From Dysgonomonas hofstadii (GTDB taxonomy: Bacteria > Bacteroidota > Bacteroidia > Bacteroidales > Dysgonomonadaceae): 64,000 nucleotides of DNA. Shown here piece after piece: positions 1,142-29,436 of the stretch. Below the pieces are notes generated by a model that did no database searches, was not told the DNA's origin, and saw only the letters and a list, made by a program, of their open reading frames with translations. The stretch covers positions 434,001 to 498,000 of the forward strand of contig NZ_JACIEP010000001.1 of NCBI RefSeq assembly GCF_014196915.1, read 5' to 3'. Positions within the stretch are counted from its first letter, which is position 1. Each line of letters begins with the position of its first letter. The position numbers and the translations under genes are program-made.

Positions 1142-4100
1142 ATGGAAAAAAGAAATAGAATTATTTCCTTTAAGGCCTTTCTTTTCTCAAAAAAGACGGT
1201 GCTACTTCCGGTTTTTCTACTCATATTTTGCCAGTTGATACAGGCACAAAGTGGAAAAAACATTGCAGGGATTGTAACTTCCCTCTCAGACAATGAACCT
1301 TTGATTGGGGTGAGTGTCGTACAAAAAGGAACAACAAATGGAACGTTAACCGATATCGATGGAAAGTTTGAATTGACTGTTCCTTCCGATTGTGTACTCG
1401 AAATCAGTTATATTGGTTTTATCCGTCAGGAAATAAATGTAAGGCCCGGAGATACCGACATCCGGATATCCCTGAAAGAGAATTCTCAGGAATTAGAAGA
1501 AGTCGTTGTCATGGGGTATGGTGTTCAGAAAAAGAAACTTATCACCGGCGCTACTGTACAGGTAAAAGGTGATGATATTCAAAGAATGAGCACAGTAAAC
1601 CCACTTACAGCTTTGCAAAGCCAGACTCCAGGCGTTAACATTACCCAGACTTCCGGTATGCCGGGCGAAGGATTCAAAGTCAACATCCGTGGTATAGGAA
1701 CTGTCGGAGATTCCAGCCCCTTAGTGGTTATCGACGGAATAGTAGGAGGTGATATAGGTACGCTCAATCCCGGAGACATAGAGTCGGTGGATGTACTTAA
1801 AGATGCGGCTTCCGCAGCTATCTATGGATCGAGAGCGGCAAATGGCGTTATCCTTATTACGACTAAACAGGGAAGAAGTGGAAAAGCAACAATCTCATAT
1901 GATGGATATTTTGGTGTGCAGAATGTGTATAAAATGCCCGATCTTCTTAACGCGCAGGAATATGCAACAATAATGAACGAAGCCAGATTAATGGACGGAC
2001 TTCCTGAATATAATTTCAGCAGTCTGGTTCCTGATTGGGAAAGTATTGCAAATGGAAGCAATCAGGGAACAAACTGGTTCGATGCCATAAGGAATAAAAA
2101 TGCTCCTATGCAAAACCATTCTCTCAATATAACTGGTGGTAACGATCAGGGCATATATTCTATCGGCATTTCATATACTTCGCAAGAAGGTATACTGGGG
2201 AAACCCGTTGAACCGAACTATGACAGATACAATTTCCGGGCAAATTCAGAATTTACTCTCTATAAAAAAGACGGACTTGATATCATAAAATTCGGTGAAA
2301 ATGTAACATATTCATATACTGAAAAATCGGGTATTGGTATCGGAAACATCTACCAGAACGACTTGCGATATGCGATGCGTGCCAGTCCATTTATGCCTGT
2401 CTACGATGAAAATGGCGACTATCATTCTGCTTTGCAATGGAATCTGATGCAGGCAAACCCTATAGCATACATGGATTATGAAAGAGGACAGAATATGCAG
2501 AAAAATCATAATCTGAGGGCAAAAGCATTTATAACCATACAACCGGTTAAAAACCTGGTAATCAAGAGTAACTTTAGTATTGGTCTCAATGGAATATCTT
2601 ATCGGGTGTTCAAACCGGAATATAATTTATCTTCCAATGCATATAGGAATGAGAATTATGTCTCTCAGGAAATGGCGTTAGGCCTTGGATGGTTATGGGA
2701 AAATACGGTCAATTACAGCTTTAATCTGAATGAAAAGCACAACTTCGATGTTTTGGTTGGTCAATCATTAGAGCGTAATGGGCTGGGTGAACGTATGAAA
2801 GGAGAAAATGTAAATTCCATATTCAATGATTTTGATCATGCTTATCTCACTAATACAAATGTAATCTATGCTGACAAAACGAAATTGATCGGTTCGCCTT
2901 ATGCCGACAAGCATGGTATTGCTTCTTTCTTTGGACGTGTAAATTATAACTACAAAGAAACATACATGGCCTCATTGATTATGCGCGCCGATGGGTCATC
3001 TAATTTTGCAAAAGGTAACAGATGGGGTTACTTCCCGTCCATATCTGCCGGATGGGTAATTTCTAATGAATCATTTATGGAACCGACAAGAGGATTTATG
3101 GATTTCCTCAAATTACGGGCGAGTTGGGGACAAAATGGAAACCAGCAAATTGATCCTTATCAATACCTGGCACAGATTTCCTTTACCAGTTCTAATTATT
3201 TCTTTGGAAACGATAAGAAAACAATATCTTCAGGATCATATCCTTCTCTGTTAGCAAATCCCGACGTCACATGGGAAACATCTGAACAATTAGATTTTGG
3301 ATTTGATGCCCGATTCCTCAATGGACGCTTAGGTGTAAACTTCGATTATTACACTAAGACGACCAAGGACTGGTTAGTTGTAGCCCCTACATTAGATCTT
3401 TACGGAGCTAACCCTCCCTATAAGAATGGAGGAGAAATCAAAAATAATGGAGTCGAAGTTCAATTGAACTGGAATGATCATATTACTGATTTTACTTATG
3501 GCGCTAATCTGAATTTCACTTATAATAAAAATGAGGTGACAAAAATAGATAATACAGAAGGTATTATTCAGGGAAGAACTAATGTATTAAGCGAGGGAAT
3601 GACCGAAATATATCGTGCTCAGGTTGGTTATCCTGTAGGATATTTCTATGGATACAAAACCTTAGGTGTTTTTCAGACAGAAAAAGAAATAGCGGAATAT
3701 AAAGGTGCTAAATTATCGAATTCACAACCGGGAGACCTTATTTACGAAGATTACAATGGAGATGGATCTATAGATGATAAAGACCGCCAGATGATAGGTA
3801 ATCCAAATCCTGATGTAATCCTTGGTCTTGGATTAAACTTTGGATACAAAGGTTTTGACTTGTCGATAACAGCAAATGCTTCGTTAGGACACCAGATAGC
3901 AAAATCGTACCGTTCTTTCACTGACAACCCGCTCGATAACTATACTACTGAGATTTTTGGACGCTGGCATGGAGAAGGAACATCTAACCGTCTGCCAAGG
4001 CTTACTTCAGGCTCTAGTTCAAACTGGCAATACATGTCTGATATTTTTATTGAAGACGCTGATTATCTGCGTATCCAGAATATTACCATAGGCTACGACT

Positions 4101-4300
4101 TCAAAAGACTATTTCCTCGCATGCCTTTGGGACAAGCACGACTTTATTTTACTGCGCAAAACCTGTATACATTTACAGGCTATTCCGGTCTTGATCCTGA
4201 AATAGGCTGGGGTGCGGATGCTTCATGGGCTTCTGGTATTGATGTGGGTAACTATCCTGTACCACGAACGTATATCGTGGGAGTTAACCTAAAGTTTTAA
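1142..4300 (+). CDS. SusC/RagA-family TonB-dependent outer-membrane transporter (PUL 1)
   Basis: This is an outer-membrane glycan importer that pairs with the SusD-like lipoprotein encoded next. At 1052 residues it has normal SusC length. A signal peptide ends near residue 36 (I-Q-A-Q). It is followed by a CarboxypepD_reg-like domain (~40-125, with G-x-V-x-D and D-I-D-G-K-F), a TonB-box/linker region E-E-V-V-V-M-G-Y-G, and a plug domain with the family hallmarks V-D-G and D-V-L-K-D-A-A-S-A-A-I-Y-G-S-R-A-A-N-G. The rest is a TonB-dependent beta-barrel ending in an aromatic-rich strand (V-N-L-K-F). The ATG at 1142 gives a clean signal sequence. The 143-bp leader shows no clear promoter consensus. 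Confidence 0.97.
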   Translation: MEKRNRIISFKAFLFSKKTVLLPVFLLIFCQLIQAQSGKNIAGIVTSLSDNEPLIGVSVVQKGTTNGTLTDIDGKFELTVPSDCVLEISYIGFIRQEINVRPGDTDIRISLKENSQELEEVVVMGYGVQKKKLITGATVQVKGDDIQRMSTVNPLTALQSQTPGVNITQTSGMPGEGFKVNIRGIGTVGDSSPLVVIDGIVGGDIGTLNPGDIESVDVLKDAASAAIYGSRAANGVILITTKQGRSGKATISYDGYFGVQNVYKMPDLLNAQEYATIMNEARLMDGLPEYNFSSLVPDWESIANGSNQGTNWFDAIRNKNAPMQNHSLNITGGNDQGIYSIGISYTSQEGILGKPVEPNYDRYNFRANSEFTLYKKDGLDIIKFGENVTYSYTEKSGIGIGNIYQNDLRYAMRASPFMPVYDENGDYHSALQWNLMQANPIAYMDYERGQNMQKNHNLRAKAFITIQPVKNLVIKSNFSIGLNGISYRVFKPEYNLSSNAYRNENYVSQEMALGLGWLWENTVNYSFNLNEKHNFDVLVGQSLERNGLGERMKGENVNSIFNDFDHAYLTNTNVIYADKTKLIGSPYADKHGIASFFGRVNYNYKETYMASLIMRADGSSNFAKGNRWGYFPSISAGWVISNESFMEPTRGFMDFLKLRASWGQNGNQQIDPYQYLAQISFTSSNYFFGNDKKTISSGSYPSLLANPDVTWETSEQLDFGFDARFLNGRLGVNFDYYTKTTKDWLVVAPTLDLYGANPPYKNGGEIKNNGVEVQLNWNDHITDFTYGANLNFTYNKNEVTKIDNTEGIIQGRTNVLSEGMTEIYRAQVGYPVGYFYGYKTLGVFQTEKEIAEYKGAKLSNSQPGDLIYEDYNGDGSIDDKDRQMIGNPNPDVILGLGLNFGYKGFDLSITANASLGHQIAKSYRSFTDNPLDNYTTEIFGRWHGEGTSNRLPRLTSGSSSNWQYMSDIFIEDADYLRIQNITIGYDFKRLFPRMPLGQARLYFTAQNLYTFTGYSGLDPEIGWGADASWASGIDVGNYPVPRTYIVGVNLKF

Positions 4301-4340: not shown

Positions 4341-6029
4341 ATGAAAAAAATTATATTTCTTTTAATAATAACATTCACGCTTATATCCTGTGATGGGTTC
4401 CTCGACTCAGAAAACATGGTGCAAAAGGATACCTCAAACTATCCTACAAATGCTAAGGAGATTGAAGAACTGTTGACAGGTACTTATTCTGTATTTCCCT
4501 CTGTAAATGTAAATCAATGTACGTTTTTTGTTTCTGAGTTAATGTCCGACGACCGCCTGGGAGGAGGAGCAGCAGTCGACAGAAGTTGGGCAGCATTAGA
4601 TCAGATGAAGAAAATTAATGATAACATGTTTTCCGATTTCTGGAAAAAGATGTATTACGGTATTTATCGTACGAATCTGTTGTTGGAAGTGATCGACAAT
4701 ATTGAGACTTGGAATACCCCTAATCAAAAGAATATTATAAAAGCGGAGACTCATTTCCTGCGGGCTTACTTCTATTTCGAACTGAGCAGAGCTTTCGGGA
4801 ATGTACCTTTAAGTCTGAATACTCTGGATGAGAATCTGCCACGTGCTTCAGTTGAAGAAGTTTATGGACAAATAGCAGCCGACCTGAAATATGCGATAGA
4901 AACACTAACAGATAATACTTTTGAACAGGACAAAGCCCGTTCAGGACATGCTACTAAATGGGCCGCCCAGGGTATGATGGCACGTGCGTTCCTATTCTAT
5001 ACCGGATATTATAAAAAAGAGTCGATGCCTCTCGCAGGAGGAGGAGAAATGAGCAAACAGCAGGTAATAAACTGGCTCGACGACTGTATAAAAAATAGTG
5101 GTCACGGCCTGATACCTAAGTTCCATAATCTTTGGCCTTATGGAAATAGGGCTACAGCGCCTGATTACAAATATGTCGTGGATAATGATGTTCAATGGAT
5201 AGGTGAAGAGGGTGCAAATTATGAGACAGTCTATGCAATAAAATATTCAGCAATGGGTGAAGATAATTCAACAAGCCTGTATTATTCCAATCAACCCGTT
5301 CTTTATTTTTCGATACGTAATCAACCTAGTTTTGCTGACATATTCCCATTTGGCGAAGGATGGGGCGGAGGTCCCGTGGCTACAAATATGATAAATGACT
5401 GGAAAAGTAAAGAGCCGAATGATCCAAGACGCGATGCTTCTGTCCTTGATGTGGAAAATCCGGACGAAGGATTAACAAATTATACATGGGGAGCCAGTAT
5501 GCAGATTCAGGAAACAGGACTTTGGCAAAAGAAATATATAGCTATCAATGCTTACCACTCTGAATATGGTCTCTGCAATTACAGTTGTTCTTTATATGGC
5601 CGGTCACCAAGTTATAAGGCAGATAATACTCAGGATCAAATCATTATTCGTTTCGCTGATATCCTGTTAATGATGGCCGAATTGACGAAGGACGCGTCAT
5701 ATATCGATCAGGTAAGAGACCGTGTAGGTTTAGGTTCTGTTGGAGCCTATACTGAAGAGGCGTTGCGCAACGAACGCCGTTGGGAGCTCGCTTTCGAAGG
5801 ATTACGTTATTACGATCTTCTCCGTTGGGGTATTGTTGGTGACGCGCTCAACAAGCAAAATGGAATTCAGGTGAAAAATAATGGAGTAGATGCAGTAATG
5901 AGTTATGATAACATCAATGCACGTTACCAGCAAACAGGAGGCTTCCTGCCTGTTCCACAGACTCAGATTGACCTCTCCGGAGGTGTTTTAACGCAGACTC
6001 CTGGTTGGGGAAGCGATGCAATTTATTAA
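4341..6029 (+). CDS. SusD/RagB-family surface glycan-binding lipoprotein (PUL 1)
   Basis: This is the outer-membrane lipoprotein lid and glycan-binding partner of the SusC transporter 40 bp upstream. The 562-residue protein begins with a short lipoprotein signal (L-I-S-C, lipidated Cys17), then D-G-F-L-D. It shows typical SusD features: helical TPR-like segments such as A-E-T-H-F-L-R-A-Y-F-Y-F-E-L, a C-terminal region with R-N-E-R-R-W-E-L-A-F-E-G-L-R-Y-Y-D-L-L-R-W-G, and the ending F-L-P-V-P-Q-T-Q. The length is normal. Sugar specificity is not deducible, but downstream beta-mannosidase and mannose-6-phosphate isomerase genes point to a mannose-containing ligand. Confidence 0.97.
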   Translation: MKKIIFLLIITFTLISCDGFLDSENMVQKDTSNYPTNAKEIEELLTGTYSVFPSVNVNQCTFFVSELMSDDRLGGGAAVDRSWAALDQMKKINDNMFSDFWKKMYYGIYRTNLLLEVIDNIETWNTPNQKNIIKAETHFLRAYFYFELSRAFGNVPLSLNTLDENLPRASVEEVYGQIAADLKYAIETLTDNTFEQDKARSGHATKWAAQGMMARAFLFYTGYYKKESMPLAGGGEMSKQQVINWLDDCIKNSGHGLIPKFHNLWPYGNRATAPDYKYVVDNDVQWIGEEGANYETVYAIKYSAMGEDNSTSLYYSNQPVLYFSIRNQPSFADIFPFGEGWGGGPVATNMINDWKSKEPNDPRRDASVLDVENPDEGLTNYTWGASMQIQETGLWQKKYIAINAYHSEYGLCNYSCSLYGRSPSYKADNTQDQIIIRFADILLMMAELTKDASYIDQVRDRVGLGSVGAYTEEALRNERRWELAFEGLRYYDLLRWGIVGDALNKQNGIQVKNNGVDAVMSYDNINARYQQTGGFLPVPQTQIDLSGGVLTQTPGWGSDAIY

Positions 6030-6055
6030 TAAAATAAATTTCTAAATTGAAGAAT

Positions 6056-6941: not shown

Positions 6942-6982
6942 AATCAGGAGCAGAGTGAAAATCTCTTCCTCTGTTCCTGATT
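6942..6982 (+). terminator. Strong stem-loop terminator/attenuator after the binding cassette
   Basis: The arms 6942-6955 and 6969-6982 pair over 14 bp with a single G-U, around a 13-nt loop, and are followed by a T-rich tract. The hairpin lies between the PKD-like lipoprotein and the SGNH hydrolase gene, and covers a GTG that could be mistaken for the latter's start. It probably lowers transcription of the enzyme genes relative to the SusCD genes, or stabilises the upstream message. Confidence 0.75.
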
Positions 6983-6996
6983 TACCTTTATTTATG

Positions 6997-7662
6997 ATGA
7001 AAAAAAATATACTTTTTATTTGTTTGATATTTAACACTGTTCTCCTTTCTGCTCAGTATCAACGGGCTGAAATGTGGGCAGAAAAAATAGCCGAACTCGA
7101 CGATAAAAACCGTAAAGAAGGAATTATTCAGGATTGCGTTCTATTTATAGGCAGTTCTACTTTCACACGTTGGGGAAATGTTGCAGATTATTTTCCTGAT
7201 TTTAAAGTCGTAAACAGGGCCTTCGGAGGCTCTATGTTATGCGATCAGATCTATTTTTTTGATAAGGTTGTAAAACCATTCAATCCGAAACAAGTTGTTA
7301 TTTATTCCGGAGATAACGACCTGAATGATACACCTACCACACCGGAACAATATATGGAAGATGTTATATGCATGACCAGGCTTATTCATTATCATTTTCC
7401 GCAAGCTAAAATAATGTTTACATCCGTAAAGCCATGTCCGGCACGGACACATTCATTCAAAAAATATAAGAAGGCAAATCAGCTAGTAGCCGGATATGCT
7501 GCTAAGTACGATTATATAGATTATGTAAATATATGGGATTGTTTCTTCGATAAAAAAGGAAAACTAATTCAGGAATATTTTACCGAAGACAATATACATA
7601 TAACTAAGGACAGCTATCGTTTCCTGAAAGAAGCGATGTATGACAAAATACTTCAAAAATAG
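6997..7662 (+). CDS. SGNH/GDSL-type hydrolase, secreted (putative carbohydrate esterase or lipase-like)
   Basis: This 221-residue exported hydrolase probably removes ester groups, such as acetyl, from glycan. The signal peptide ends near L-L-S-A-Q. SGNH-family blocks are visible: block I as G-S-S (residues 52-54, with Ser54 the likely nucleophile, Gly-Ser-Ser replacing Gly-Asp-Ser), N-R-A-F-G-G-S, block III as S-G-D-N-D (Asn107), and the C-terminal D-x-x-H dyad (Asp198, His201). An in-frame GTG at 6955 would add 14 residues, but it lies inside the terminator hairpin and has no signal-peptide character. The ATG pair at 6994/6997 is preferred. The gene is followed after 8 bp by the GH2 gene, so the two are probably co-transcribed. 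Confidence 0.85.
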   Translation: MKKNILFICLIFNTVLLSAQYQRAEMWAEKIAELDDKNRKEGIIQDCVLFIGSSTFTRWGNVADYFPDFKVVNRAFGGSMLCDQIYFFDKVVKPFNPKQVVIYSGDNDLNDTPTTPEQYMEDVICMTRLIHYHFPQAKIMFTSVKPCPARTHSFKKYKKANQLVAGYAAKYDYIDYVNIWDCFFDKKGKLIQEYFTEDNIHITKDSYRFLKEAMYDKILQK

Positions 7663-7670
7663 ACGGTGAT

Positions 7671-10529
7671 ATGAAAAATATATTTGGGATTATTATATTA
7701 TTCCAGTTTATTGCAGGTTTTCAAAATCTGAATGCCCAATACGAACTCAATTTCGGGCTTCAGTCGAAACAAGCGGAAAGTGAACTGCCGAAGTCAAAAG
7801 CGGCATACATCCCCCCCACCCCTAAAGCTTATCAGTATATAAATGGAGAGCTACAAAAAGATGAGGAAGGGAATTTTACAATAAGCAAAGGTTGGGAAAT
7901 GACAGAAGCTTATAAGCTGTTTGAAGAGGGAAATTCTTTATGGAAGACTTCTTCAGGTAATACCGGCTGGTATAACGCGACTGTCCCCGGAACTGTATTG
8001 ACTACCTTAGTCGATCAGGGAATATATCCTGATCCTTATTATAGTCTCAACAATCTACATATCCCCGATACCTTATGCCGTATGGACTGGTGGTATCGTG
8101 TAGCTTTCGATATTCCGGCAGATGGACTCGATTCCGAATACGAACTTTTATTGAACGGTATCAATTACAAAGCTGATGTTTGGCTGAACGGGCAACGGCT
8201 CGGAAATCTCGCCGGAGCATTTAAAAGAGGCATCTTTCCGACAAAAGGAATATTGAAGAATAATGAAAAAAATATTCTGGCGATACATATATTTCCACCT
8301 AATAATCCGGGCATACCTCACGAGCAAAATAAGCTGTCATTCGGTGGCAACGGAGGAGCCTTATGTCTCGATGGCCCCACTTTTATTTCATCCGAAGGAT
8401 GGGACTGGATACTTGGAATGAGAGACAGGAATATCGGTATATGGCAGGATGTTAAGCTAGTTAGGATGAACAAGGTCAAAATAATAGATCCGTTTATTAT
8501 TACAGACCTGCCTCTGCCTGATACTTCTTATGCCGATTTGACGATAAAAACAACACTGGAAAATATCACAGACCAGTCACAAATATTTATATTAAAAGGG
8601 ACAATAAACAACATTACTTTCTCAAAAGAGATTACGCTTAGCCGCAATGAAAAGAAAGAGGTAACCATTGACAAAAATGAGTTCAGCCAGTTAAGGATAC
8701 AAAATCCACAACTATGGTGGCCAAACGGTTATGGAAGTCAATTTCTCTATAATCTTAAACTGTCGGTAGAACAAGAAAATAAAATATTACAAACCAAAAA
8801 TATCCGTTTCGGTGTTAGGGAACTGTCTTATGAACTGATGGCTCAATCCGAAGCCAAAGAAAACGTTCGTTTCAACTACAGTCCTACCGATGCGGGTAAA
8901 CCTTTATTCAATAATAAAAATGCCGTAAAATTGGAAAACACTCAATATCCCGACATCTTTGTGCCGACTTTTGAGAGCGGTGCGGAAAAGTATATCAACA
9001 GAATAACCGCTAGCGAAGAAAAAGATAATCCTTACCTGACTATACTGGTAAATGGCAAAAAAATATTCTGCCGTGGTGGAAACTGGGGAATGGATGACGG
9101 GATGAAGCGGGTGTCGAGGGAAAGACTCGAACCATATATCAAACTCCATAAGGAGATGGGCTTCACCATGGTGCGCAACTGGACAGGTGAAACAACCGAA
9201 GAATTGTTTTACACGCTGTGCGATGAATATGGATTACTCGTATGGAACGATTATATGATGTCGACTCAGACTTTCAACCTGGAACCCTTAGACCATAAAC
9301 TCTTTCTTGACAATGCGGAAGACATTGTGCGCCGTTTCCGCAATCATCCGTCCATTGCTATCTGGTGTCCTCGCAATGAAGGGTATGCTCCTGCGGCATT
9401 GGAAGACGGTTTTCAGAAAATAATCACAGAGAACGACGGAACACGCCATTATCATGGAAACTCGATGAAACTCAATCTTCGTCCAAGTGGGCCATGGCAT
9501 TATCTGGTAAAATCTATGGATTACCTGACTGAGCGTTCTGATGGATTCACTACCGAACTGGGAGCGCCATCCGTACCTACAGCCAATACTATCCGCAAGT
9601 TTATAGCAAAAGAAGATCTGTGGCCGATAGGAAACGTATGGTATTACCACGACCTGCACATCGAGAGTTTCGACTGGAAAGATTATATCCGTGATGTAAA
9701 CCGTATAGGTAAAGAAGAAAGTAAAAATATAGATGAATTTGCTGCGCGGGCACAGTTCAAGAATTACATCCTCTACCGTAATATGCTGGAGGCGTGGAAT
9801 AACAAAATGTGGAACCATGCCAGTGGAATACTGCTGTGGATGAGCCATCCGGCATGGCCCAGTATGACATGGCAGACATATTCTTATGATTATGAAACTC
9901 CCGGATCGTATTTCGGAGCAAAAAAGGCCTGTGAACCTGTGCATATTCAATGGAATTGTATCAACAACCAGTTACAGGTTATAAACACAACCTTGGCAAG
10001 TCTGCCTTCAGCTAAAGTTAGCTTTGGAATATATGATTTAAAAGGGAAAAAGCTTTTCAACAAACAACTGAAAGTGAACATCGGAGAGAATAGTGCAACT
10101 AATTGCGGTGAGATGACTATTCCTTCGGATATTCAAGAAGAATTGCTGTTAGTGAGGGTAGTATTGGAAGATGCCAAGGGAAAACAGATTTCAGTAAATG
10201 ATTACTGGATCAATCAGAAAGACAGTAACGATTATACTAAAATATCAGATATAGGAAAAGCCGGAATTAAGATCATAGAAAAAGGAACTAATTATAAAAA
10301 CGGAATTCTATCACTCAAAGCGGAAGTTAAGAATACGGCACCGGATATAGCCCTGACTGTCAAGCTAAACGCCCGGGAAAAAGAAACCGGTCAGATTATA
10401 CTCCCTGCTTATATTTCCGATGGGTATTTTAATTTATTACCTGGTGAAACCCGGATTTTAGACGTGGAAATACCATTGCAGGAGAAGAGAGAAATATACA
10501 TGTCGGCAGAAGGATTAAATACATTCTAA
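7671..10529 (+). CDS. GH2-family exo-beta-glycosidase (beta-mannosidase / exo-glucosaminidase-like), exported
   Basis: A signal peptide (ending L-N-A-Q) is followed by an unusual ~55-residue linker and then the GH2 architecture: sugar-binding jelly-roll domain (~80-270, with G-W-Y-x-A-T-V-P-G-T-V and W-W-Y-R), Ig-like domain (~275-385), TIM barrel (~450-720) and C-terminal beta domains to residue 952. The candidate acid/base is Glu570 in W-C-P-R-N-E-G. Glu629 in T-T-E-L-G-A-P-S is the most plausible nucleophile. The layout resembles mannosylglycoprotein endo-beta-mannosidase and exo-chitosanase relatives more than lacZ-type enzymes. It likely acts in the periplasm on oligosaccharides imported by SusCD. 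The precise sugar is not certain. Confidence 0.85.
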   Translation: MKNIFGIIILFQFIAGFQNLNAQYELNFGLQSKQAESELPKSKAAYIPPTPKAYQYINGELQKDEEGNFTISKGWEMTEAYKLFEEGNSLWKTSSGNTGWYNATVPGTVLTTLVDQGIYPDPYYSLNNLHIPDTLCRMDWWYRVAFDIPADGLDSEYELLLNGINYKADVWLNGQRLGNLAGAFKRGIFPTKGILKNNEKNILAIHIFPPNNPGIPHEQNKLSFGGNGGALCLDGPTFISSEGWDWILGMRDRNIGIWQDVKLVRMNKVKIIDPFIITDLPLPDTSYADLTIKTTLENITDQSQIFILKGTINNITFSKEITLSRNEKKEVTIDKNEFSQLRIQNPQLWWPNGYGSQFLYNLKLSVEQENKILQTKNIRFGVRELSYELMAQSEAKENVRFNYSPTDAGKPLFNNKNAVKLENTQYPDIFVPTFESGAEKYINRITASEEKDNPYLTILVNGKKIFCRGGNWGMDDGMKRVSRERLEPYIKLHKEMGFTMVRNWTGETTEELFYTLCDEYGLLVWNDYMMSTQTFNLEPLDHKLFLDNAEDIVRRFRNHPSIAIWCPRNEGYAPAALEDGFQKIITENDGTRHYHGNSMKLNLRPSGPWHYLVKSMDYLTERSDGFTTELGAPSVPTANTIRKFIAKEDLWPIGNVWYYHDLHIESFDWKDYIRDVNRIGKEESKNIDEFAARAQFKNYILYRNMLEAWNNKMWNHASGILLWMSHPAWPSMTWQTYSYDYETPGSYFGAKKACEPVHIQWNCINNQLQVINTTLASLPSAKVSFGIYDLKGKKLFNKQLKVNIGENSATNCGEMTIPSDIQEELLLVRVVLEDAKGKQISVNDYWINQKDSNDYTKISDIGKAGIKIIEKGTNYKNGILSLKAEVKNTAPDIALTVKLNAREKETGQIILPAYISDGYFNLLPGETRILDVEIPLQEKREIYMSAEGLNTF

Positions 10530-10640: not shown

Positions 10641-11201
10641 ATGGATAAATCGAAAATTTTGTTTCCAAAAGCAATATTCACGAATAATCTTTTAACCGGG
10701 GAGAGCGTAAAATGTGACACACGCAAACTATCCGATCTGGAGAATATATTTCTGGATAAAGAAGCTTTCCGCAATATGGACTTGCAGCAAACAGTCTACA
10801 ATGTCAACAGCCTGCTTCCCGTAAAGGAAAATACTCCCGGAGGGCTTTTTTTCGGTATCACTACTATTTATCCGGGAAAAGTAGGGAATGAATTTTTTAT
10901 GACAAAAGGGCATTTTCATTCAAATCTCGATACTGCCGAATTTTATTGGGGAGTGGAAGGTGAAGGAATGCTTATAATGATGGATATGGACAGGAATGTA
11001 TGGGCCGAAAGAATGTTTCCGGGAAGCCTGCATTATATACCGGGAAAAGTTGCCCATCGTGTAGCGAATACCGGCTATCGAAAGCTGGTATTCTCTGCCT
11101 GCTGGCCATCAGATGCCGGGCATGATTATAAATCGATCGCGAAAGATGATTTCGCCATGCGGCTGATAGAAAAAAATGGAGTTCCTGTACTGATTAAATA
11201 A
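10641..11201 (+). CDS. Cupin-type (archaeal-type) phosphoglucose isomerase
   Basis: This cytoplasmic metal-dependent isomerase interconverts glucose-6-phosphate and fructose-6-phosphate. The 186-residue protein has no signal peptide and a single cupin domain. The motif G-H-F-H (His91, His93), Glu100 in T-A-E-F-Y and His139 in V-A-H-R-V reproduce the spacing of the four metal ligands known for the Pyrococcus furiosus enzyme (H88, H90, E97, H136). It starts a cassette (isomerase, ROK kinase, mannose-6-phosphate isomerase, second cupin isomerase), with 6 bp to the kinase gene. The 111-bp upstream gap shows no clear promoter. Bacteroidales normally use a different, sugar-isomerase-fold Pgi, so this copy is likely dedicated to the locus. 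Confidence 0.88.
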   Translation: MDKSKILFPKAIFTNNLLTGESVKCDTRKLSDLENIFLDKEAFRNMDLQQTVYNVNSLLPVKENTPGGLFFGITTIYPGKVGNEFFMTKGHFHSNLDTAEFYWGVEGEGMLIMMDMDRNVWAERMFPGSLHYIPGKVAHRVANTGYRKLVFSACWPSDAGHDYKSIAKDDFAMRLIEKNGVPVLIK

Positions 11202-11207
11202 AAAACG

Positions 11208-12176
11208 ATGAAAGAAACATATACAATAGGAATCGATCTGGGAGGTACATTCGTAAAGGTGGGATTGATTGGCAACGGGCTAATTATTGACTGTTCTGTA
11301 TTCGAGTCTAATATGCATAACGGATTAGAAGCTAATTTGCCTGACCTGAAATCGACGATACTGGATATTATCGATAGGAATAATGTCCTGGTAAATGAAC
11401 TGACCGGCATTAGTCTCGCTTTCCCGGGCATAGTAGATGCGACTAACAGCAAAGTATTATCGACGAACGAAAAATATGATGACGCATGCCGGTTGAATCT
11501 GGAAGCATGGTGCGAAATAAATTTCGGAGTGCCGTTCTATATCGATAATGATGCCCGGCTTGCCACAATAGGAGAATGGAAATACGGCGGCGCAAAAGGC
11601 CTCAATAATGTAGTAATGATGACTCTCGGCACGGGAATAGGCACAAGCGTCATTCTGGATGGCAGGGTGATGTACGGAGAGCATTTTCAGGCGGGATCGC
11701 TGGGCGGCCATTTTGTGGTAGATTATAAAGGACGGAAATGCTCGTGTGGAAACATCGGATGCGTAGAAGCTCATGCTTCATCATTTTTCCTGCAAAGAAT
11801 AATCGAGGAAAGTGATAGCTTATCCGCTGCATTTAAAGCTGAATCAAAGGAGTACACTTTCGAAAAATTGTTTTGCCTGTCGAAAGAGAATGAAGAAGCC
11901 CAATCATTGATAAATGAATGCCTGAATGTGTGGGCTGCGGCAATAGTCACTTATATACATGCGTACGATCCTCAGATAGTGATCGTAGGAGGAGGAATTA
12001 TGAAAAGTGAGGATTTAATCTTACCATTTCTTCGCCGCTATGTGGACGAAAACGCATGGTGCCCTACACAAAAAGTAGAGATAGTAGCTTCTGAACTGGG
12101 AGATAATGCCGCCGTGTTAGCAGCAGAATATTGTTTAATAAATAAAATAAGAAAAAGTGAATCCGCTAAAATATAA
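11208..12176 (+). CDS. ROK-family sugar kinase
   Basis: This cytoplasmic ATP-dependent hexose kinase has 322 residues, the usual ROK length. The N-terminal phosphate loop is I-D-L-G-G-T (Asp10-Thr14). The catalytic aspartate lies in Y-I-D-N-D-A (Asp115). G-T-G-I-G-T-S and the ROK zinc-binding signature C-S-C-G-N-I-G-C-V-E (Cys178, Cys180, Cys185) follow, then G-G-G-I near the C-terminus. There is no DNA-binding HTH domain, so it is a kinase and not a ROK repressor. Its neighbours suggest that it phosphorylates mannose or glucose delivered by the MFS symporter encoded at the end of the locus. The final 20 bp overlap the next gene. Confidence 0.92.
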   Translation: MKETYTIGIDLGGTFVKVGLIGNGLIIDCSVFESNMHNGLEANLPDLKSTILDIIDRNNVLVNELTGISLAFPGIVDATNSKVLSTNEKYDDACRLNLEAWCEINFGVPFYIDNDARLATIGEWKYGGAKGLNNVVMMTLGTGIGTSVILDGRVMYGEHFQAGSLGGHFVVDYKGRKCSCGNIGCVEAHASSFFLQRIIEESDSLSAAFKAESKEYTFEKLFCLSKENEEAQSLINECLNVWAAAIVTYIHAYDPQIVIVGGGIMKSEDLILPFLRRYVDENAWCPTQKVEIVASELGDNAAVLAAEYCLINKIRKSESAKI

Positions 12177-13932
12177 ATCAAATTATGATAAATATCCGGT
12201 GGTTCAATTACCGGACGATTATATAAAAGATTGTTTCCCAGGCTGGAATGCAATATTAAGTGAAATAGCTTCTAAACTGCAACAGAAAGTTGGGAAAAAA
12301 AATATCCTTGTCATAGAATGCTATCCTGGGGTATTTGAAAAAGAAATTGAAGATAATTTTCTATCTAAATTTCCTGATGTACTGATTCTGAATTCATCAT
12401 CGGCAATGCTCTGTGAGGATAAACTCAATGCCTTGCTGAAAGAAGATATAACAGACGATGAAATATTCGGCTATATGACCCGCCGGAATATCGACTGCTA
12501 TTTCGACACTATAAAAGTTGAAGCATTACGAAGCCAAATAAAAGAAGCGAAGAATGATCTTATAATCATTTTTGGTACAGGCGCGGCTTATATACAACCG
12601 GAATCCGATATTCTCATGTATGCCGATATGGCAAGGTGGGAGATACAGATGCGTTTCCGTAGAAATGAGTTAGGCAATATCGGAGTCAATAATAAAGACG
12701 AACGGGCTTCTCTGAAATATAAAAGAGCTTTTTTTGTAGACTGGCGCATCTGTGACCGATTCAAAAAGAAATTAATGCCAAAATGGGATTACGTCCTCGA
12801 CACGAATATCAAAAACGAACCTAAAATGGCTACGGCCAAGGCTATACGTGCAGGACTGAAACAGGCTGCAAGCCAGCCATTCCGTGTAGTTCCTTTTTTC
12901 GATCCCGGACCATGGGGCGGACAATGGATGAAAGAAGTCTGCGACCTCGACAGAGATCAAAAGAACTTTGCATGGTGCTTCGATTGTGTGCCTGAAGAGA
13001 ACAGTCTCTTGCTTGGTTTCGGCGATGTGAAATTCGAATTGCCGTCTATAGATTTGGTTTTCGCACATCCCTGTGATTTGTTGGGAAAACCTGTGCATGC
13101 TCGTTTCGGAGATGAATTCCCTATTCGCTTCGATTTCCTCGATACAATGGATGGAGGTAATTTAAGCTTACAGGTGCATCCTCTGACAGAATATATACAG
13201 GAAAAGTTCGGGATGCACTACACGCAGGAAGAAAGCTATTATATGCTCGATGCCCGAGAAGATGCAGTAGTATATCTCGGTCTGAAGAACGGCATAGATA
13301 AGGATAAAATGATCAGTGAACTTGAAGATTCCCAGACTACAGGAAAATTCGACGCAGATAAATATATAGGGAAATATCCGGTAAAAAAGCACGACCATAT
13401 CCTTATTCCTCCCGGCACGATCCATTGTTCAGGGATTAATGGAATGGTACTCGAAATAAGTGCAACTCCTTTCATCTTTACCTTCAAACTATGGGACTGG
13501 GCCCGTCTGGGGCTTGATGGCAGACCACGACCTATCAATATCGAGCATGGAAAGAATGTGATCCAATGGAACAGGGACGAAAACTGGGTGAAAAATGAAG
13601 GTATCAATCAGATAGTGAAGGTGGCTGAAGGCGATGGCTGGCATGAAGAAAAAACCGGATTGCACGAGTGCGAATTTATAGAAACCCGCCGTCATTGGTT
13701 CTCCAAGACAGTACCTCATAAAACAAATGGTAGTGTAAATGTACTGAACCTGGTGGAAGGACGTGAGGCGATAGTGGAAAGTCCGACAAACGCATTCGAA
13801 CCGTTTGTTGTGCACTATGCCGAAACTTTTATCATCCCTGAGGCTGTGAAAGAATATACAATACGTCCTTTCGGCGAATCGGAAGGGAAAGAATGTGCTA
13901 CCCTCAAAGCTTATGTGAGACACAATGGATAA
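12157..13932 (+). CDS. Class I mannose-6-phosphate isomerase with large N-terminal extension
   Basis: This enzyme converts mannose-6-phosphate to fructose-6-phosphate using zinc. The cupin-type PMI domain occupies about residues 260-591. It shows the zinc-ligand motif L-S-L-Q-V-H-P (Gln339, His341) and the second-half H-I-L-I-P-P-G-T-I-H (His423). Classic PMIs are 300-400 residues; here residues 1-250 form an extra domain that looks like a degenerate nucleoside-kinase-like alpha/beta fold without an intact P-loop. The start is a GTG inside the kinase gene. No in-frame ATG occurs nearby, and the 20-bp overlap implies translational coupling. The stop overlaps the next start by 8 bp. Role and fold of the N-terminal domain are inference. 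Confidence 0.88.
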   Translation: MNPLKYKSNYDKYPVVQLPDDYIKDCFPGWNAILSEIASKLQQKVGKKNILVIECYPGVFEKEIEDNFLSKFPDVLILNSSSAMLCEDKLNALLKEDITDDEIFGYMTRRNIDCYFDTIKVEALRSQIKEAKNDLIIIFGTGAAYIQPESDILMYADMARWEIQMRFRRNELGNIGVNNKDERASLKYKRAFFVDWRICDRFKKKLMPKWDYVLDTNIKNEPKMATAKAIRAGLKQAASQPFRVVPFFDPGPWGGQWMKEVCDLDRDQKNFAWCFDCVPEENSLLLGFGDVKFELPSIDLVFAHPCDLLGKPVHARFGDEFPIRFDFLDTMDGGNLSLQVHPLTEYIQEKFGMHYTQEESYYMLDAREDAVVYLGLKNGIDKDKMISELEDSQTTGKFDADKYIGKYPVKKHDHILIPPGTIHCSGINGMVLEISATPFIFTFKLWDWARLGLDGRPRPINIEHGKNVIQWNRDENWVKNEGINQIVKVAEGDGWHEEKTGLHECEFIETRRHWFSKTVPHKTNGSVNVLNLVEGREAIVESPTNAFEPFVVHYAETFIIPEAVKEYTIRPFGESEGKECATLKAYVRHNG

Positions 13933-14719
13933 GAAAATTCTTCAATTCGATCCAGGATTTGGAATTCAGCCAGTCAGTAATCCTTTAGGTTTTCTCTACG
14001 ACAATGATGTATTTGGACCTGAGGTTGAAAACAGACGGTTGGACGATATACGAAAAAGCCTGATGCAACCCGATTGCGATGGCCCGGAAGTGGTCTATTC
14101 CATTGCTATGGATGTAGGAAAAAAAATACACCGTGAGATGCTAATCGACAGGCACCTCTTGTTTGGAGTGGTGACATTTGCTGCCGGGAAATTAGGTGCA
14201 GAGCCTATACGCAGTCAGGGACATATACATAAAGTCTCACCGATAAGTAACTGGTCTACTCCCGAGGTATATGAAATATGGTCGGGTGAAGCCATTATAT
14301 ATATGCAGGAATATGCAGAAGACGATCCGGGACGTTGTTTTGCTGTGTATGCCAAGCAGGGAGACGTGGTAATTGTTCCGCCTTATTGGGCTCATGCCAC
14401 TATAAATGCGAATCCGGACAAGGAGATGACATTCGGGGCGTGGTGTGACCGAAAATACGGATTTGAATATGATGGCGTGAGAAAGCATAAGGGTATAGCA
14501 TGGTATCCGCATTTCGATGAGAATAATACATTGGAATGGGTGGCTAATCCCCTCTATAATAGTTCATCTTTAATATGCAAAACGCCTGAAAAATATCTTT
14601 CTTTAGGCATTAAGGATAATAAGTCTATATATCAGTTGTTTGAAGAAAATCCTGATTTATTTTCGTTTGTTCCTTTTCCTCAAAAAAAGAAGGATGTATG
14701 GGTGGATTTTGTGCCATAG
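13925..14719 (+). CDS. Second cupin-type glucose-6-phosphate isomerase family protein
   Basis: This 264-residue cytoplasmic cupin is related to archaeal-type phosphoglucose isomerases but longer than the copy at 10641. Metal ligands are visible in Q-G-H-I-H (His100, His102), in P-E-V-Y-E (Glu114 or Glu117) and in Y-W-A-H-A-T (His157). It shares the pattern around those motifs with the first copy, but little else is obviously conserved, so the two are distant paralogues and not a recent duplication. The ATG lies inside the PMI stop region (8-bp overlap), placing it firmly in the cassette. It may act on glucose-6-phosphate or on another phosphosugar made by this locus. Confidence 0.82.
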   Translation: MDKKILQFDPGFGIQPVSNPLGFLYDNDVFGPEVENRRLDDIRKSLMQPDCDGPEVVYSIAMDVGKKIHREMLIDRHLLFGVVTFAAGKLGAEPIRSQGHIHKVSPISNWSTPEVYEIWSGEAIIYMQEYAEDDPGRCFAVYAKQGDVVIVPPYWAHATINANPDKEMTFGAWCDRKYGFEYDGVRKHKGIAWYPHFDENNTLEWVANPLYNSSSLICKTPEKYLSLGIKDNKSIYQLFEENPDLFSFVPFPQKKKDVWVDFVP

Positions 14720-14966: not shown

Positions 14967-17555
14967 ATGAGATTTTTTTATTTTTTACCAGTATTATTTT
15001 TTATTATGTTGTCTTCCATAGTTTTGGCACAGAAACCTATCTATATGCAGATAAATGAAAGTTGGCAATTCAAACAGGCCAGGTTGGATAATTGGTATCC
15101 GGCAACAGTACCCGGAGTAGTGCATACCGATCTTGTCAAGAATAAATTGATAGAAGATCCTTTCTTCGGGCTCAATGAACGAACCATGCAATGGATAGAC
15201 AAGGAGGATTGGATCTATGAAACAAATTTTGACGTATCATCCGAAATCTTTGAGAAGAATAACATTTCTATTTTCTTCAAAGGATTGGACACTTATGCCG
15301 ATGTATATCTTAATGAGGAAAAAATACTGGCAGCGGATAACATGTTCCGTGAATGGAAAGTAGATGTAAAGAAATTACTGAAACAAAAAGATAATAAACT
15401 AAGGATATATTTTTATTCCCCGATAAAAAAAGCGTTGCCCGAATGGCAGGCCAGTCCGATCACTTATTTTGCATCTAACGATCAATCGCAAAACGGCGGA
15501 ATGTTCGATGCGAAAGTCAGTGTTTATACCCGTAAGGCCGGATATCATTACGGATGGGACTGGGGGCCACGGTTGGTTACTTCCGGTATCTGGAAACCGG
15601 TTATACTGGAAGCATGGAATGATGTGAAAATAGAGAATGTACATTACATACAGAAAAATGTAACAGCCCGCCATGCTGATATTGATACTGGCATCGAAAT
15701 ATTATCAGATAAGGATGCACAGACAGTAAAGATTCAAATACTGGACGAGAACACGGATAAGATATTAACCGAAACTTCATCTGAACTGACAGCAGGAAAA
15801 AACATAGTAAATGTAAACTTCAAACTGAAGAATCCGACCTTGTGGTGGAGTAACGGGCTGGGTAAACCTCATTTGTACAGTTTCAAAACAAAACTGATAC
15901 TGAATGGTGAGACTGCCGATGAAGATAAAACCCGCGTTGGTATCCGTTCCATAGAAGTAGTCAGAAAGCCTGATAATGAAGGCTTGGCATTCTATTTTAA
16001 ACTGAATGGAGTTCCAATATTCTCGAAAGGAGTTAACTACATACCCGGAGATGTTTTTTTGCCCCGTCTAACAAGGAGCGACTATGAGAAGACGATAAAA
16101 GATGCAGTAGATGTCAATATGAATATGATACGTGTCTGGGGAGGCGGTATCTATGAGGATGATATATTCTACGACCTTTGTGACGAAAATGGCATTCTTG
16201 TATGGCAGGACTTTACATTCGCCTGCAGTGTATATCCTTTAGGCGATAAGATGAAAGAAAATATAAGACAGGAAGCTAAAGACAACATTCGCCGTTTGCG
16301 CAACCATGCATCGCTTGCTCTCTGGTGCGGCAATAATGAGATTATGGATGCGATATTCAATTGGGGATGGATGGAAAAATATAAAAAGGAAAATCCGGAA
16401 CATTTTAATATTATTCTGAAACAATATTTTGATCTTTTTCACGAACTGTTACCTGAAGCGGTGGCAGAACATAACCCAGAGACTTACTATCTCCCTACAT
16501 CACCTTTCAATGATATGAAAGGCACACGAAGCGAGACTTCGGGCGATTATCATTACTGGGCCACCTGGCAGCAGGGGCTTCCTATTTCAACATTCAATGA
16601 TGTTCGGAGCCGTTATTTCAGCGAATATGGTTTTCAATCTTTTCCGACGATCGAAACTGTGAAAAAATACGCATCCGACAGCCGTGACATGAATATATAT
16701 TCAGATGTGATGATGTGGCATCAAAGGGGTGGAATGAACGCCAATAAAACAATAGAGAAATGCATTATCAATGAATATGGCAAAGCGAAAGATTTCGAAT
16801 CCTTTCTGTATCTCAGCCAACTGTTGCAAGGCGATGCCATGAAGATCGCCATGGAAGCACACCGGCGCGATATGCCATTCTGTATGGGTAGCCTTTACTG
16901 GCAGCATAACGATTGCTGGCCTGTGGCCTCATGGTCGAGCAGGGATTATTGCGGGCAATGGAAAGCGCAGCATTATTTTACAAAAAAGGCTTTCGATGAA
17001 ATATTGATATCGACTGATCTGAAAAATAATAACTTAGATGTATATATTATTTCCGACAAGTTGGAAAAACTGAAAAGTAAATTAAGGATACAGATTATAA
17101 CACCGGATGGGAAAGTTATCTCCGATATAAGTAAGGATATCATTGCCGTACCAAATTCGAGCACCAAGGTTTTAGAATTAAATCTTGCTGAATTACTAAA
17201 AGAGGAGAAAAAAGAAAATGTTATTATTTATTCATATCTTGAAAACGATAAAAAACCGCAGTATGAAAACATTTCATTCCTGACCGAGCAAAAGAATATG
17301 CAATATCCAGCTTGTCAAATAACCCAAAATATACTTGCTATCGATGGAGGATATGAAATAAATTTAAAGAGTGATAAATTCGCAAGAGGTATCTTTCTAT
17401 CGATAAAAGGAACTGATCATCACTTTAGTGATAACTTTTTTGATTTACTTCCTGGTAAAGAATATAAGATAAATGTGACTACATCTTTATCCCTGAATGA
17501 ATTTGAGAAACAGCTAAAAATAATATCAATAGCAGACGCCTTAATAAATGAATAA
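14967..17555 (+). CDS. GH2 beta-mannosidase, exported
   Basis: This exo-acting enzyme removes terminal beta-linked mannose. The 862-residue protein has a signal peptide ending V-L-A-Q and the typical beta-mannosidase layout. It has an N-terminal sugar-binding domain with W-Y-P-A-T-V-P-G-V-V-H-T-D and N-E-R-x-M-Q-W-I (~40-85), an Ig-like domain, and a TIM barrel with the active-site strands V-W-G-G-G-I-Y-E-D-D and W-C-G-N-N-E (acid/base Glu458). The nucleophile Glu553 lies in Y-F-S-E-Y-G-F-Q-S. C-terminal Ig-like domains follow. The 95-residue spacing of the two glutamates fits the family. Only 11 bp separate it from the symporter gene, so release and uptake of the sugar are probably co-expressed. 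Confidence 0.93.
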   Translation: MRFFYFLPVLFFIMLSSIVLAQKPIYMQINESWQFKQARLDNWYPATVPGVVHTDLVKNKLIEDPFFGLNERTMQWIDKEDWIYETNFDVSSEIFEKNNISIFFKGLDTYADVYLNEEKILAADNMFREWKVDVKKLLKQKDNKLRIYFYSPIKKALPEWQASPITYFASNDQSQNGGMFDAKVSVYTRKAGYHYGWDWGPRLVTSGIWKPVILEAWNDVKIENVHYIQKNVTARHADIDTGIEILSDKDAQTVKIQILDENTDKILTETSSELTAGKNIVNVNFKLKNPTLWWSNGLGKPHLYSFKTKLILNGETADEDKTRVGIRSIEVVRKPDNEGLAFYFKLNGVPIFSKGVNYIPGDVFLPRLTRSDYEKTIKDAVDVNMNMIRVWGGGIYEDDIFYDLCDENGILVWQDFTFACSVYPLGDKMKENIRQEAKDNIRRLRNHASLALWCGNNEIMDAIFNWGWMEKYKKENPEHFNIILKQYFDLFHELLPEAVAEHNPETYYLPTSPFNDMKGTRSETSGDYHYWATWQQGLPISTFNDVRSRYFSEYGFQSFPTIETVKKYASDSRDMNIYSDVMMWHQRGGMNANKTIEKCIINEYGKAKDFESFLYLSQLLQGDAMKIAMEAHRRDMPFCMGSLYWQHNDCWPVASWSSRDYCGQWKAQHYFTKKAFDEILISTDLKNNNLDVYIISDKLEKLKSKLRIQIITPDGKVISDISKDIIAVPNSSTKVLELNLAELLKEEKKENVIIYSYLENDKKPQYENISFLTEQKNMQYPACQITQNILAIDGGYEINLKSDKFARGIFLSIKGTDHHFSDNFFDLLPGKEYKINVTTSLSLNEFEKQLKIISIADALINE

Positions 17556-17566
17556 ATAATAAAAAC

Positions 17567-18892
17567 ATGAAAAACAGCAAATATTTATATTGGATCACAT
17601 TTGTAGCGATTAATGGAGGATTGATGTTTGGGCTTAACATGGCATCTATTTCAGGCGCTACGGAAATGTTGCAAAGCGATTTTTCATTAAGCAACAGCGG
17701 CCTCGGAATGGTTACAGGCTCAATGATGCTCGGTTGTCTGATTGGGGCATTATTCACGGGAAGTCTGGCTGAAAGATTCGGCCGGAAAAAGATAATGATA
17801 TTCGCTGCTATTTCTTTCATCATTTCAGCGTTGGGTTGTGCATTATCCAATAGTCTGGCTATGCTGACCGCTTTCCGTATTCTTACAGGTATTACCGTAG
17901 GCTCAATATCTGTAGTCGGACCCATGTATATTTCGGAAGTTGCACCTGCAAAAAAGAGAGGAACACTGGTGTCGTTTAATCAATTAGCGATAACTATCGG
18001 AATCCTTTTAGCTTACTTTCTGGATTATCTGTTGGTTGATCTGGGAGACCAAAGCTGGAGGTATATGCTGGGAATTCCTGCTGTTTTCGCTGTACTATTC
18101 CTAATTTTCCTTATTATATCCTTTCCCGAAAGCCCGCGTTGGTTGTTGAAGCAGGGTAAAAAAGAGTTATCCCTGACTATCTTTGAAAAAATAGAAGGAG
18201 GTATTCCTGAAGAATTATCAGAATTAAAAATATCGAATAACAACACTACCTCTATTTCTATCAAAGACTTATTTAGAGGAAAAACAGGAAAGATCGTATT
18301 CATCGGTACACTGATCGCTGTATTTCAACAAATAACAGGGATAAATGCGGTTCTTATCTTTGCCCCTGATATTCTGAAATCGGCAGGCGTCGGAGGAGAA
18401 ACTGCTTTGCAACAATCGATGCTCGTCGGGCTGGTTAATTTCTTAATGACCATTGTCGCTATTCGCTTGGTGGATAAGAAAGGACGCAAGACATTGTTGC
18501 TATCAGGGGCGATAGGAATGACCATCGCATTATCTTTCCTTACTTATCAGTTTACTCAACCGGACAGGAACTCCACTCTGGTACTGATCGCATTATTATT
18601 GTATATTGCTTTTTTCGCAGCATCTTTCGCTCCTGTAATGTGGGTTATTATATCGGAAATATACCCTGCTGATATAAAAGGACTGGCTATGTCTTTTTCT
18701 ACAGCAGTGAGCTGGGTGTTTACGTTCATAACTGTTTACACAGCTCCTTTAATCCGCTCCAACTGGGGAGATTATGCTCTATTTGCGATTTATGCCTTAT
18801 TTTCTGTATTGGCTTTTATTTTTGTAAAGAGATATATACCCGAAACAAAAGGCAAAACATTGGAACAAATACAAGAAGAACTGAAATTATAG
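17567..18892 (+). CDS. MFS sugar porter (sugar:H+ symporter)
   Basis: This inner-membrane monosaccharide importer has 441 residues, about 12 hydrophobic segments and the sugar-porter family signatures: G-S-L-A-E-R-F-G-R-K-K after TM2 (65-75), P-E-S-P-R-W-L before the central loop (from residue 187), D-K-K-G-R-K between TM8 and TM9, and P-E-T-K-G-K near the C-terminus (from residue 425). It is the last gene of the locus, 11 bp after the beta-mannosidase gene. It likely imports the released mannose or glucose for the ROK kinase. No obvious terminator follows. Confidence 0.93.
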   Translation: MKNSKYLYWITFVAINGGLMFGLNMASISGATEMLQSDFSLSNSGLGMVTGSMMLGCLIGALFTGSLAERFGRKKIMIFAAISFIISALGCALSNSLAMLTAFRILTGITVGSISVVGPMYISEVAPAKKRGTLVSFNQLAITIGILLAYFLDYLLVDLGDQSWRYMLGIPAVFAVLFLIFLIISFPESPRWLLKQGKKELSLTIFEKIEGGIPEELSELKISNNNTTSISIKDLFRGKTGKIVFIGTLIAVFQQITGINAVLIFAPDILKSAGVGGETALQQSMLVGLVNFLMTIVAIRLVDKKGRKTLLLSGAIGMTIALSFLTYQFTQPDRNSTLVLIALLLYIAFFAASFAPVMWVIISEIYPADIKGLAMSFSTAVSWVFTFITVYTAPLIRSNWGDYALFAIYALFSVLAFIFVKRYIPETKGKTLEQIQEELKL

Positions 18893-21168: not shown

Positions 21169-21223
21169 AATATTGAATGATAAGCCCGGGAGGCTTTCGT
21201 ACAGGAAGCACAGTATTGTCTGC

Positions 21224-21231
21224 TATGTTTG
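21224..21231 (+). promoter_or_regulatory. Possible secondary -7 box before the GH43 gene
   Basis: The sequence tatgtttg fits TAnnTTTG and lies 37 bp before the GH43 ATG, the same distance as at 19601. A weak aagcc/ggctt hairpin at 21182-21196 precedes it. No TTG occurs at the -33 distance. It may allow separate initiation, but a chance match is possible. Confidence 0.35.
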
Positions 21232-21268
21232 TGTAATAAATAGTAAATAATTAAATAGTAATAAATAT

Positions 21269-22261: not shown

Positions 22262-22279
22262 TTACTATACCAGATTATT

Positions 22280-23935: not shown

Positions 23936-23957
23936 CATAATCCTTAATTTATAACAT

Positions 23958-26225: not shown

Positions 26226-26252
26226 AATTTAATAATCAATGAATATAATATT

Positions 26253-29417: not shown

Positions 29418-29436
29418 CAATGAAATATTGAAAAAT

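Follow-up and report, generated by a model that had tools for sequence, protein, structure and literature searches.

The cassette and its setting

The stretch of DNA analysed here, referred to as the window, comprises 64,000 nucleotides of Dysgonomonas hofstadii (contig NZ_JACIEP010000001.1, positions 434,001 to 498,000 of the forward strand) and contains a compact cassette of four genes. These encode a short cupin-type glucose-6-phosphate isomerase (GPI1), a ROK sugar kinase, an extended mannose-6-phosphate isomerase (phosphomannose isomerase, PMI; the extended form is termed PMI-ext), and a long cupin-type glucose-6-phosphate isomerase (GPI2). The cassette is closely packed, with a gap of 6 bases between GPI1 and ROK and overlaps of 20 bases between ROK and PMI-ext and of 8 bases between PMI-ext and GPI2. 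Changes in the active sites of both cupins suggest that these enzymes do more than repeat the textbook step of glycolysis. A model's reading of the sequence alone, referred to as the original prediction, had described such a four-gene cassette within a polysaccharide utilization locus (PUL) that has a beta-mannosidase and its own symporter. The open reading frames (ORFs), the Pfam matches and a match of PMI-ext to the solved PMI 1qwr bear out the gene content (Table 1), and the locus is indeed of the SusC/SusD type, with a glycoside hydrolase family 2 (GH2) beta-mannosidase and a sugar porter around the four cassette genes.

Family and active sites of the two cupins

Both cupins are members of Pfam family PF06560, with bit scores of 84.8 for GPI1 and 76.4 for GPI2 against a gathering score of 20.7, and at 1e-3 NCBIfam gave no match for either of them or for PMI-ext. 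They resemble the phosphoglucose isomerases (PGIs) of Pyrococcus furiosus (PfPGI) and Thermococcus litoralis in fold, Pfam family and metal ligands. Residues 21-183 of GPI1 match the solved cupin-type PGI 1j3p (2e-39), whereas GPI2, which carries extra C-terminal residues compared with the Pyrococcus and Thermococcus enzymes, is related only distantly to solved PGIs (5e-7); its structural model (predicted local distance difference test, pLDDT, 96.1) fits PfPGI 1x82 best, with a template modeling (TM) score of 0.77 by target.

The metal ligands at the PfPGI positions His88, His90, Glu97 and His136, of which Glu97 is taken here to be a further ligand, are intact in 64 of 64 GPI1 and 78 of 78 GPI2 cassette proteins, so that the prediction of intact metal sites in the two cupins of the window also holds for their counterparts elsewhere. 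In PMC6627849, the metal of PfPGI is described as bound by His88, His90 and His136, and proton transfer as involving Tyr152 and His158. The latter pair is complete in neither cupin of the cassette. At the position of Tyr152, GPI1 has Trp155 in all 64 cassette proteins that reach 150 aa, and His is found at the position of His158 in 62/64; the two positions correspond to Cys174 and Phe180 in GPI2 (78/78), in which Arg96, Ser97 and Gln98 are likewise invariant. The analyses of residues and of distances (see below) used one protein per locus, subject to a minimum length, and locus L022, whose genes are broken, was left out of the distances.

For comparison, 16 cupin GPIs outside the cassette were assembled, consisting of seven from proteobacterial plasmids (taken from 63 plasmid records with a match), seven from the order of Cohnella (seven of 13 places, including the second Cohnella copy and omitting the two Cohnella cassette cupins and four matches that are short and weak), the GPI1-like protein of locus L161, and PfPGI; L174 is a divergent member of this set. 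The Tyr152 position is occupied by Tyr in eight, Phe in six, Cys in one and Ser in one, with Trp in 0/16, and the His158 position by His in ten, Gln in five and Asn in one. Within this 16-protein comparison, Trp marks the cassette GPI1, and His158 is less telling. The control for GPI2 is a single distant relative on a Salmonella plasmid, with Ala and Val at the relay positions.

The distant GPI2 relative lies between ptsG and hxlB-hxlA on a Salmonella IncI resistance plasmid (L090, 6132-9867), a gene set that perhaps constitutes a route from glucose to ribulose-5-phosphate. In Cohnella (L133, 4760-16806), the second cupin GPI is accompanied by an FGGY kinase and a 2-hydroxyacid dehydrogenase, hxlA-hxlB lie nearby, and inspection by eye added ATP-binding cassette transporter and aldo/keto-reductase genes. 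On plasmids of Lichenicola, S. meliloti and Marinovum (L183, L184 and L186), a cupin GPI heads a common gene row annotated as encoding a 2-keto-3-deoxy-6-phosphogluconate-type aldolase, a shikimate dehydrogenase, a phosphoglycerate dehydrogenase and a metallo-beta-lactamase-fold hydrolase, which is likely a non-glycolytic pathway. Because some members accompany polyol-type enzymes (L184 and L185), the cupin GPI family may reach beyond glycolysis.

Recurrence of the cassette and its housekeeping counterparts

Searching genome contigs with a GPI2 profile yielded 98 relatives, and the best 80 loci were retained. Gene content was counted in the 49 of these 80 loci that extend at least 6 kb before and at least 2.5 kb after GPI2, with partner genes sought within 10 kb on the same strand by profile searches on stop-to-stop frames, since a greedy gene caller had dropped some sense genes, GPI2 in L108 among them, in favour of antisense ORFs. 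GPI1 is present in 47 of the 49 loci, PMI-ext in 45, ROK in 41 and the porter in 33, and all four core genes occur together in 36. The order GPI1-ROK-PMI-GPI2 is found in 31/49 loci if the porter is ignored and in 22/49 if it is regarded as a break. As the cassette recurs across phyla, its gene order is not a lone occurrence, and the refuting condition that the original prediction set on this point does not hold.

Judged by record title, most carriers belong to Bacteroidota, and nine loci belong to Bacillota (L056, L061, L071, L072, L073, L076, L081, L083 and L089). The gene order differs in the named Bacillota isolates (L056, L073, L076, L081 and L083), while L061, from a metagenome-assembled genome (MAG), has the Bacteroidota order; the MAG contigs L045, L055 and L082 carry other phylum names, which binning error could explain. 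The cassette occurs in 4/101 genomes of the family of the window, in 5/395 of its phylum, and, carriers included, in 2/296, 2/392 and 3/299 genomes of the orders of three Bacillota carriers. It is thus rare and patchy, present in 0.5-4% of the sampled genomes of Bacteroidota and Bacillota, and a literature search found no description of it.

Pairwise distances of the four proteins correlate with r of 0.78-0.82 in all six protein pairs (45 sets, window included), and 0/500 permutations reach such values. This correlation fits joint inheritance or transfer, and host relatedness alone would raise r as well. A strictly obligate partnership of GPI1 and GPI2 was rejected, given the absence of GPI1 in 2/23 GPI2 genomes and of GPI2 (at 1e-40) in genome G1114, in which the GPI1-like gene of L161 adjoins PMI-ext.

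Where ROK was not seen, other phosphorylating systems were found in several loci, namely a lactose/cellobiose-family phosphotransferase system (PTS) with GH1 in L072 and L073 (the latter with a short upstream stretch), a Man-family PTS in L105, an FGGY kinase with a zinc dehydrogenase in L056, and a BadF-type protein in L071.

The genome of the window (5.0 Mb) has no other PF06560 gene, one classical PGI and one short PMI. With the classical PGI also present in 17/17 other cassette genomes, coexistence amounts to 18/18 (one being a fragment at a contig end), and the redundancy with housekeeping enzymes is real.

The ROK kinase

The cassette kinase shares with known ROK hexokinases, including glucokinase (2qm1), N-acetylmannosamine kinase (MNK, 2yhw) and E. 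coli AlsK, a DxGxT-type start, the catalytic Asp and a CxCGxxGCxE-type zinc motif, and its Asp115 (catalytic), Cys178, Cys180, Cys185 and Glu187 are invariant over 30 aligned rows. It differs from them at the ExGH motif, whose glutamate is replaced, with one residue inserted before Gly-His. This glutamate is missing in 58/58 cassette ROKs and in that of the window, whereas it is kept in E. coli AlsK, a D-allose kinase, and, according to profile alignments, in glucokinase and MNK. PMC10031466 presents it as a proposed ligand of the sugar 3-OH in ROK kinases. The loss was rejected as proof of a C3-epimer sugar, since zinc-type ROKs beside PMI-ext in loci without a cupin seen (L159, L162 and Hymenobacter L165) lack the glutamate as well. 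In the ROK tree, L159, L165 and, less surely, L162 are placed among the cassette ROKs; the gene list of L162 contains one GH92-type gene and that of L159 none.

The extended mannose-6-phosphate isomerase

PMI-ext (591 aa) has no Pfam match at 1e-3. B. subtilis ManA 1qwr aligns to its residues 240-467 (5.5e-9) and is also the best structural match of its AlphaFold model (mean pLDDT 92.5; TM score 0.85 by target length), and the type I PMI fold and metal site are present. His341, Glu359, His423, Glu433 and Arg450 are kept relative to 1qwr in 46/46 proteins, whereas the Lys that precedes the metal Glu of 1qwr by two residues is Gln357 in 84/84 PMI-ext, including non-cassette members. Compared with type I PMI, PMI-ext has an extra N-terminal alpha/beta domain of ~240 residues, for which there was no significant sequence match in the PDB (best 0.19), and the 50 structure matches listed are PMIs and other cupins.

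All ten GPI2 genomes checked contain PMI-ext; for G106, G1500, G1501 and G1503, the stretch read around the best copy holds no cupins, and for G1502 the best copy belongs to a second cassette copy. In the phylum sample, PMI-ext was found in 29/395 genomes at E <= 1e-100 and in 14/395 at E <= 1e-250, the latter including all five GPI2 genomes. A gene of a GH92 cluster, so assigned from a Pfam match in its L129 member, adjoins PMI-ext in five of nine close GPI2-less genomes (L156, L158, L160, L162 and L163; the neighbour lists cover PMI-strand genes from 150 aa upward). P. distasonis TSDC17.2 has a cassette without PMI and, on another record, PMI-ext beside ROK, GH92 and GH38, together with another major facilitator superfamily (MFS) protein. 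GH92 and GH38 indicate alpha-mannosides. Other PULs contain PMI-ext modules, exemplified by P. distasonis record NZ_OY725755 and in some cases accompanied by GH92/GH38. These modules have the same PMI subfamily as the cassette, and some have the same ROK and porter types, but they differ in their glycosidases and in the absence of any cupin GPI seen. The original prediction regarded monosaccharide enzymes within PULs as unusual, a view that finds no support here: other SusC/SusD loci contain a ROK/PMI/porter trio on a stretch free of cupin GPIs, and some of these loci have GH92.

The PMI tree mixes cassette and non-cassette members (a short search with one long branch, supported only by the Shimodaira-Hasegawa-like approximate likelihood ratio test, SH-aLRT), and its label "far" is partly due to sense genes lost by the gene caller. 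The active-site motifs of the cassette recur in the cupin-less loci L128, L129, L130 and L132; the agreement is near-complete in L137 and lacking in the divergent L134. The idea that PMI-ext is private to the cassette was rejected in view of its occurrence at E <= 1e-100 and of the outsiders among the cassette members in the tree. In L106, PMI-ext stands side by side with a standard ManA, a hint that PMI-ext is more than an additional ManA. As a separate observation, L137 (8941-11652), from a genome of the genus of the window, contains a 903-aa ORF resembling a fusion of ROK and PMI-ext, beside GH92- and GH38-like genes.

A proposed role and its alternatives

The preferred reading, with a probability of roughly one half, is that the cassette represents a conserved, patchily spread and perhaps mobile cytosolic module that converts one or more hexoses released by the locus into fructose-6-phosphate (F6P), with the cupins catalyzing two non-identical steps. 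In the direction and order that we infer, the sugar porter would import the hexose, and the ROK kinase, or in some loci a PTS, FGGY or BadF-type protein, would yield the 6-phosphate. PMI-ext would then interconvert mannose-6-phosphate (M6P), or a close analogue, and a ketose phosphate, and GPI1 and GPI2 would act as metal-dependent isomerases of the aldose-ketose type on two different steps outside the reach of the housekeeping PGI. The cassette has the appearance of a mannose-type module, consisting of porter, ROK and PMI-ext, that has gained two specialised cupins. A different substrate for one cupin, as originally proposed, is plausible and is helped by active-site changes peculiar to the cassette; the relay departures fixed in both cupins fit this part of the proposal, and the identity of the phosphosugar is a matter of inference.

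Since the PMI and ROK subfamilies are common to cupin-less modules, some of them beside GH92/GH38, M6P is the likeliest entry, which weakens a purely exotic-sugar version. Several considerations weigh against the preferred reading. Cassette members are mixed with members of loci in which no cupins were seen, both in the PMI tree and, with less certainty, in the ROK tree, so that neither enzyme points to a substrate of its own. Because the relay positions also vary outside the cassette (8/16 Tyr, 10/16 His), a cupin could lose the relay residues and still have PGI activity. Cupin PGIs were first described by Hansen et al. 2005, who reportedly tested enzymes from Salmonella and S. meliloti. Citing that paper, a review (PMC12965863) calls cupin PGIs specific for the interconversion of glucose-6-phosphate and F6P. 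Additionally, the two GPI2 genomes mentioned above lack any GPI1 at 1e-10; gene lists read by eye revealed no recognisable substitute kinase in the ROK-less loci L051, L054, L057 and L078 (L046, not read gene by gene, was omitted from this reading); and the hydrolases near cassettes span GH1, 2, 4, 13, 38, 43 and 127 and name no sugar.

An alternative explanation, possible though held only tentatively, is an ordinary supply of mannose and glucose, in which ROK phosphorylates both sugars, PMI-ext handles M6P, and the cupins are plain PGI duplicates serving flux or regulation. The second GH2 enzyme of the window is clearly a beta-mannosidase, the Man-family PTS of L105 and the lactose/cellobiose-family PTS with GH1 of L072 and L073 would suit mannose and glucose, and duplication is normal in this setting, as a housekeeping-type PMI is duplicated by PMI-ext modules in other loci, some with GH92 or GH38. 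This explanation leaves unaccounted for the presence of two different cupins in one cassette, the residue changes fixed in each, and the ManA beside PMI-ext in L106.

A C3-epimer hexose, such as D-altrose, D-allose or D-allulose, is an unlikely substrate, for which the 6-phosphate made by the kinase would be converted by PMI-ext into allulose-6-phosphate and by GPI1 and GPI2 together, via a 3-hexulose-6-phosphate, into F6P. Paired isomerases with unlike proton relays would suit two different isomerisations, and the cupins of Cohnella L056 have an FGGY kinase and a zinc dehydrogenase for neighbours, as might be expected for a ketose or polyol; the association of a distant GPI2 relative with hxlB-hxlA on the Salmonella plasmid and of a GPI1-like gene near hxlA-hxlB in Cohnella points the same way. 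Loss of the ExGH glutamate, the 3-OH binder proposed in PMC10031466, from all cassette ROKs would also agree with such a sugar, particularly as AlsK has kept it, but the very fact that a D-allose kinase retains this residue indicates that a C3 epimer does not require its loss, which moreover extends to the zinc-type ROKs beside PMI-ext without cupins. The sharing of active-site motif residues with the cupin-less PMI-ext of L128, L129, L130 and L132, and the genomes with GPI2 and no GPI1, likewise argue against it. The chemistry that it would demand of the cupins, a paired C3 epimerisation leading from a 2-ketohexose-6-phosphate of the D-allulose-6-phosphate type through a 3-hexulose-6-phosphate to F6P, is itself improbable; if true, it would provide a route for altrose/allose-type sugars that dispenses with an AlsE-type epimerase. 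Very improbable is a role of GPI2 (or GPI1) as a sugar-phosphate anomerase or sensor grafted onto a mannose module with no isomerase activity, which would agree with the absence of both PfPGI relay residues from all 78 GPI2 and with the remote kinship of GPI2 to solved PGIs but is opposed by the retained fold and metal ligands and by the variation of cupin GPIs outside the cassette at the same positions.

The cassette bears on annotation, as cupin GPIs tend to receive the default label of glucose-6-phosphate isomerase. A widely shared cassette with two diverged cupin GPIs beside a classical PGI defines a subgroup whose reaction needs measuring rather than assuming, and the residues Trp155 (GPI1) and Cys174 and Phe180 (GPI2), together with the four proteins, make the question directly testable. 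The cassette may thereby reveal a hexose that these saccharolytic bacteria take from glycans.

The surrounding locus

Table 1. Genes of the cassette and of the locus around it, in window coordinates.
Feature	Position	Strand	Basis or remark
PF12876 cellulase-like protein, 421 aa in genome	1..998	+	Pfam; cut by the left edge of the window
SusC/RagA-type TonB-dependent transporter	1142..4300	+	TIGR04056, 8e-287
SusD-like partner	4341..6029	+	Position; blastp relatives with SusD annotation in L003
286-aa protein	6047-6907		No Pfam match
GDSL-type esterase	6955..7662	+	PF13472
GH2 enzyme of the beta-mannosidase / exo-beta-glucosaminidase kind	7671..10529	+	
GPI1, short cupin-type GPI	10641..11201	+	PF06560, 5.8e-24
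ROK sugar kinase	11208..12176	+	Pfam ROK, 1.8e-49
PMI-ext, extended PMI, 591 aa	12157..13932	+	Alignment and structural match to 1qwr
GPI2, long cupin-type GPI	13925..14719	+	PF06560, 2.2e-21
GH2 beta-mannosidase	14967..17555	+	Pfam; solved beta-mannosidase 2vjx, 5e-209
MFS sugar porter	17567..18892	+	Scores over the TIGR00879 sugar porter cut-off

The solved beta-mannosidase 2vjx is presumably Bacteroides BtMan2A. The beta-mannosidase of the window is not a conserved partner of the cassette, being absent from the stretch read in the Parabacteroides loci L011 and L014, which have SusC, SusD, the 286-aa gene, GDSL and the first GH2 in common with the window. The SusD-like protein is 63-65% identical to its kin in these two loci, and the 286-aa gene is conserved beside SusD in both (52-53% identity), its product possibly being a surface glycan-binding protein. 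The PF12876 gene, originally read as 30-998, actually begins before the window, as in L110 it spans 2733-3998, corresponding to about -267 to 998 in window coordinates; the protein is a recurrent neighbour of the cassette, which it also adjoins in L104, from a genome of the order of Cohnella.

Farther downstream, sulfatases, GH43, a BACON-domain protein and SusD are encoded at 19645-31137, followed by a hybrid two-component regulator on the minus strand (34117-38133) and, in the region up to 49452, by an arabinofuranosidase-domain protein, another sulfatase and GH20.

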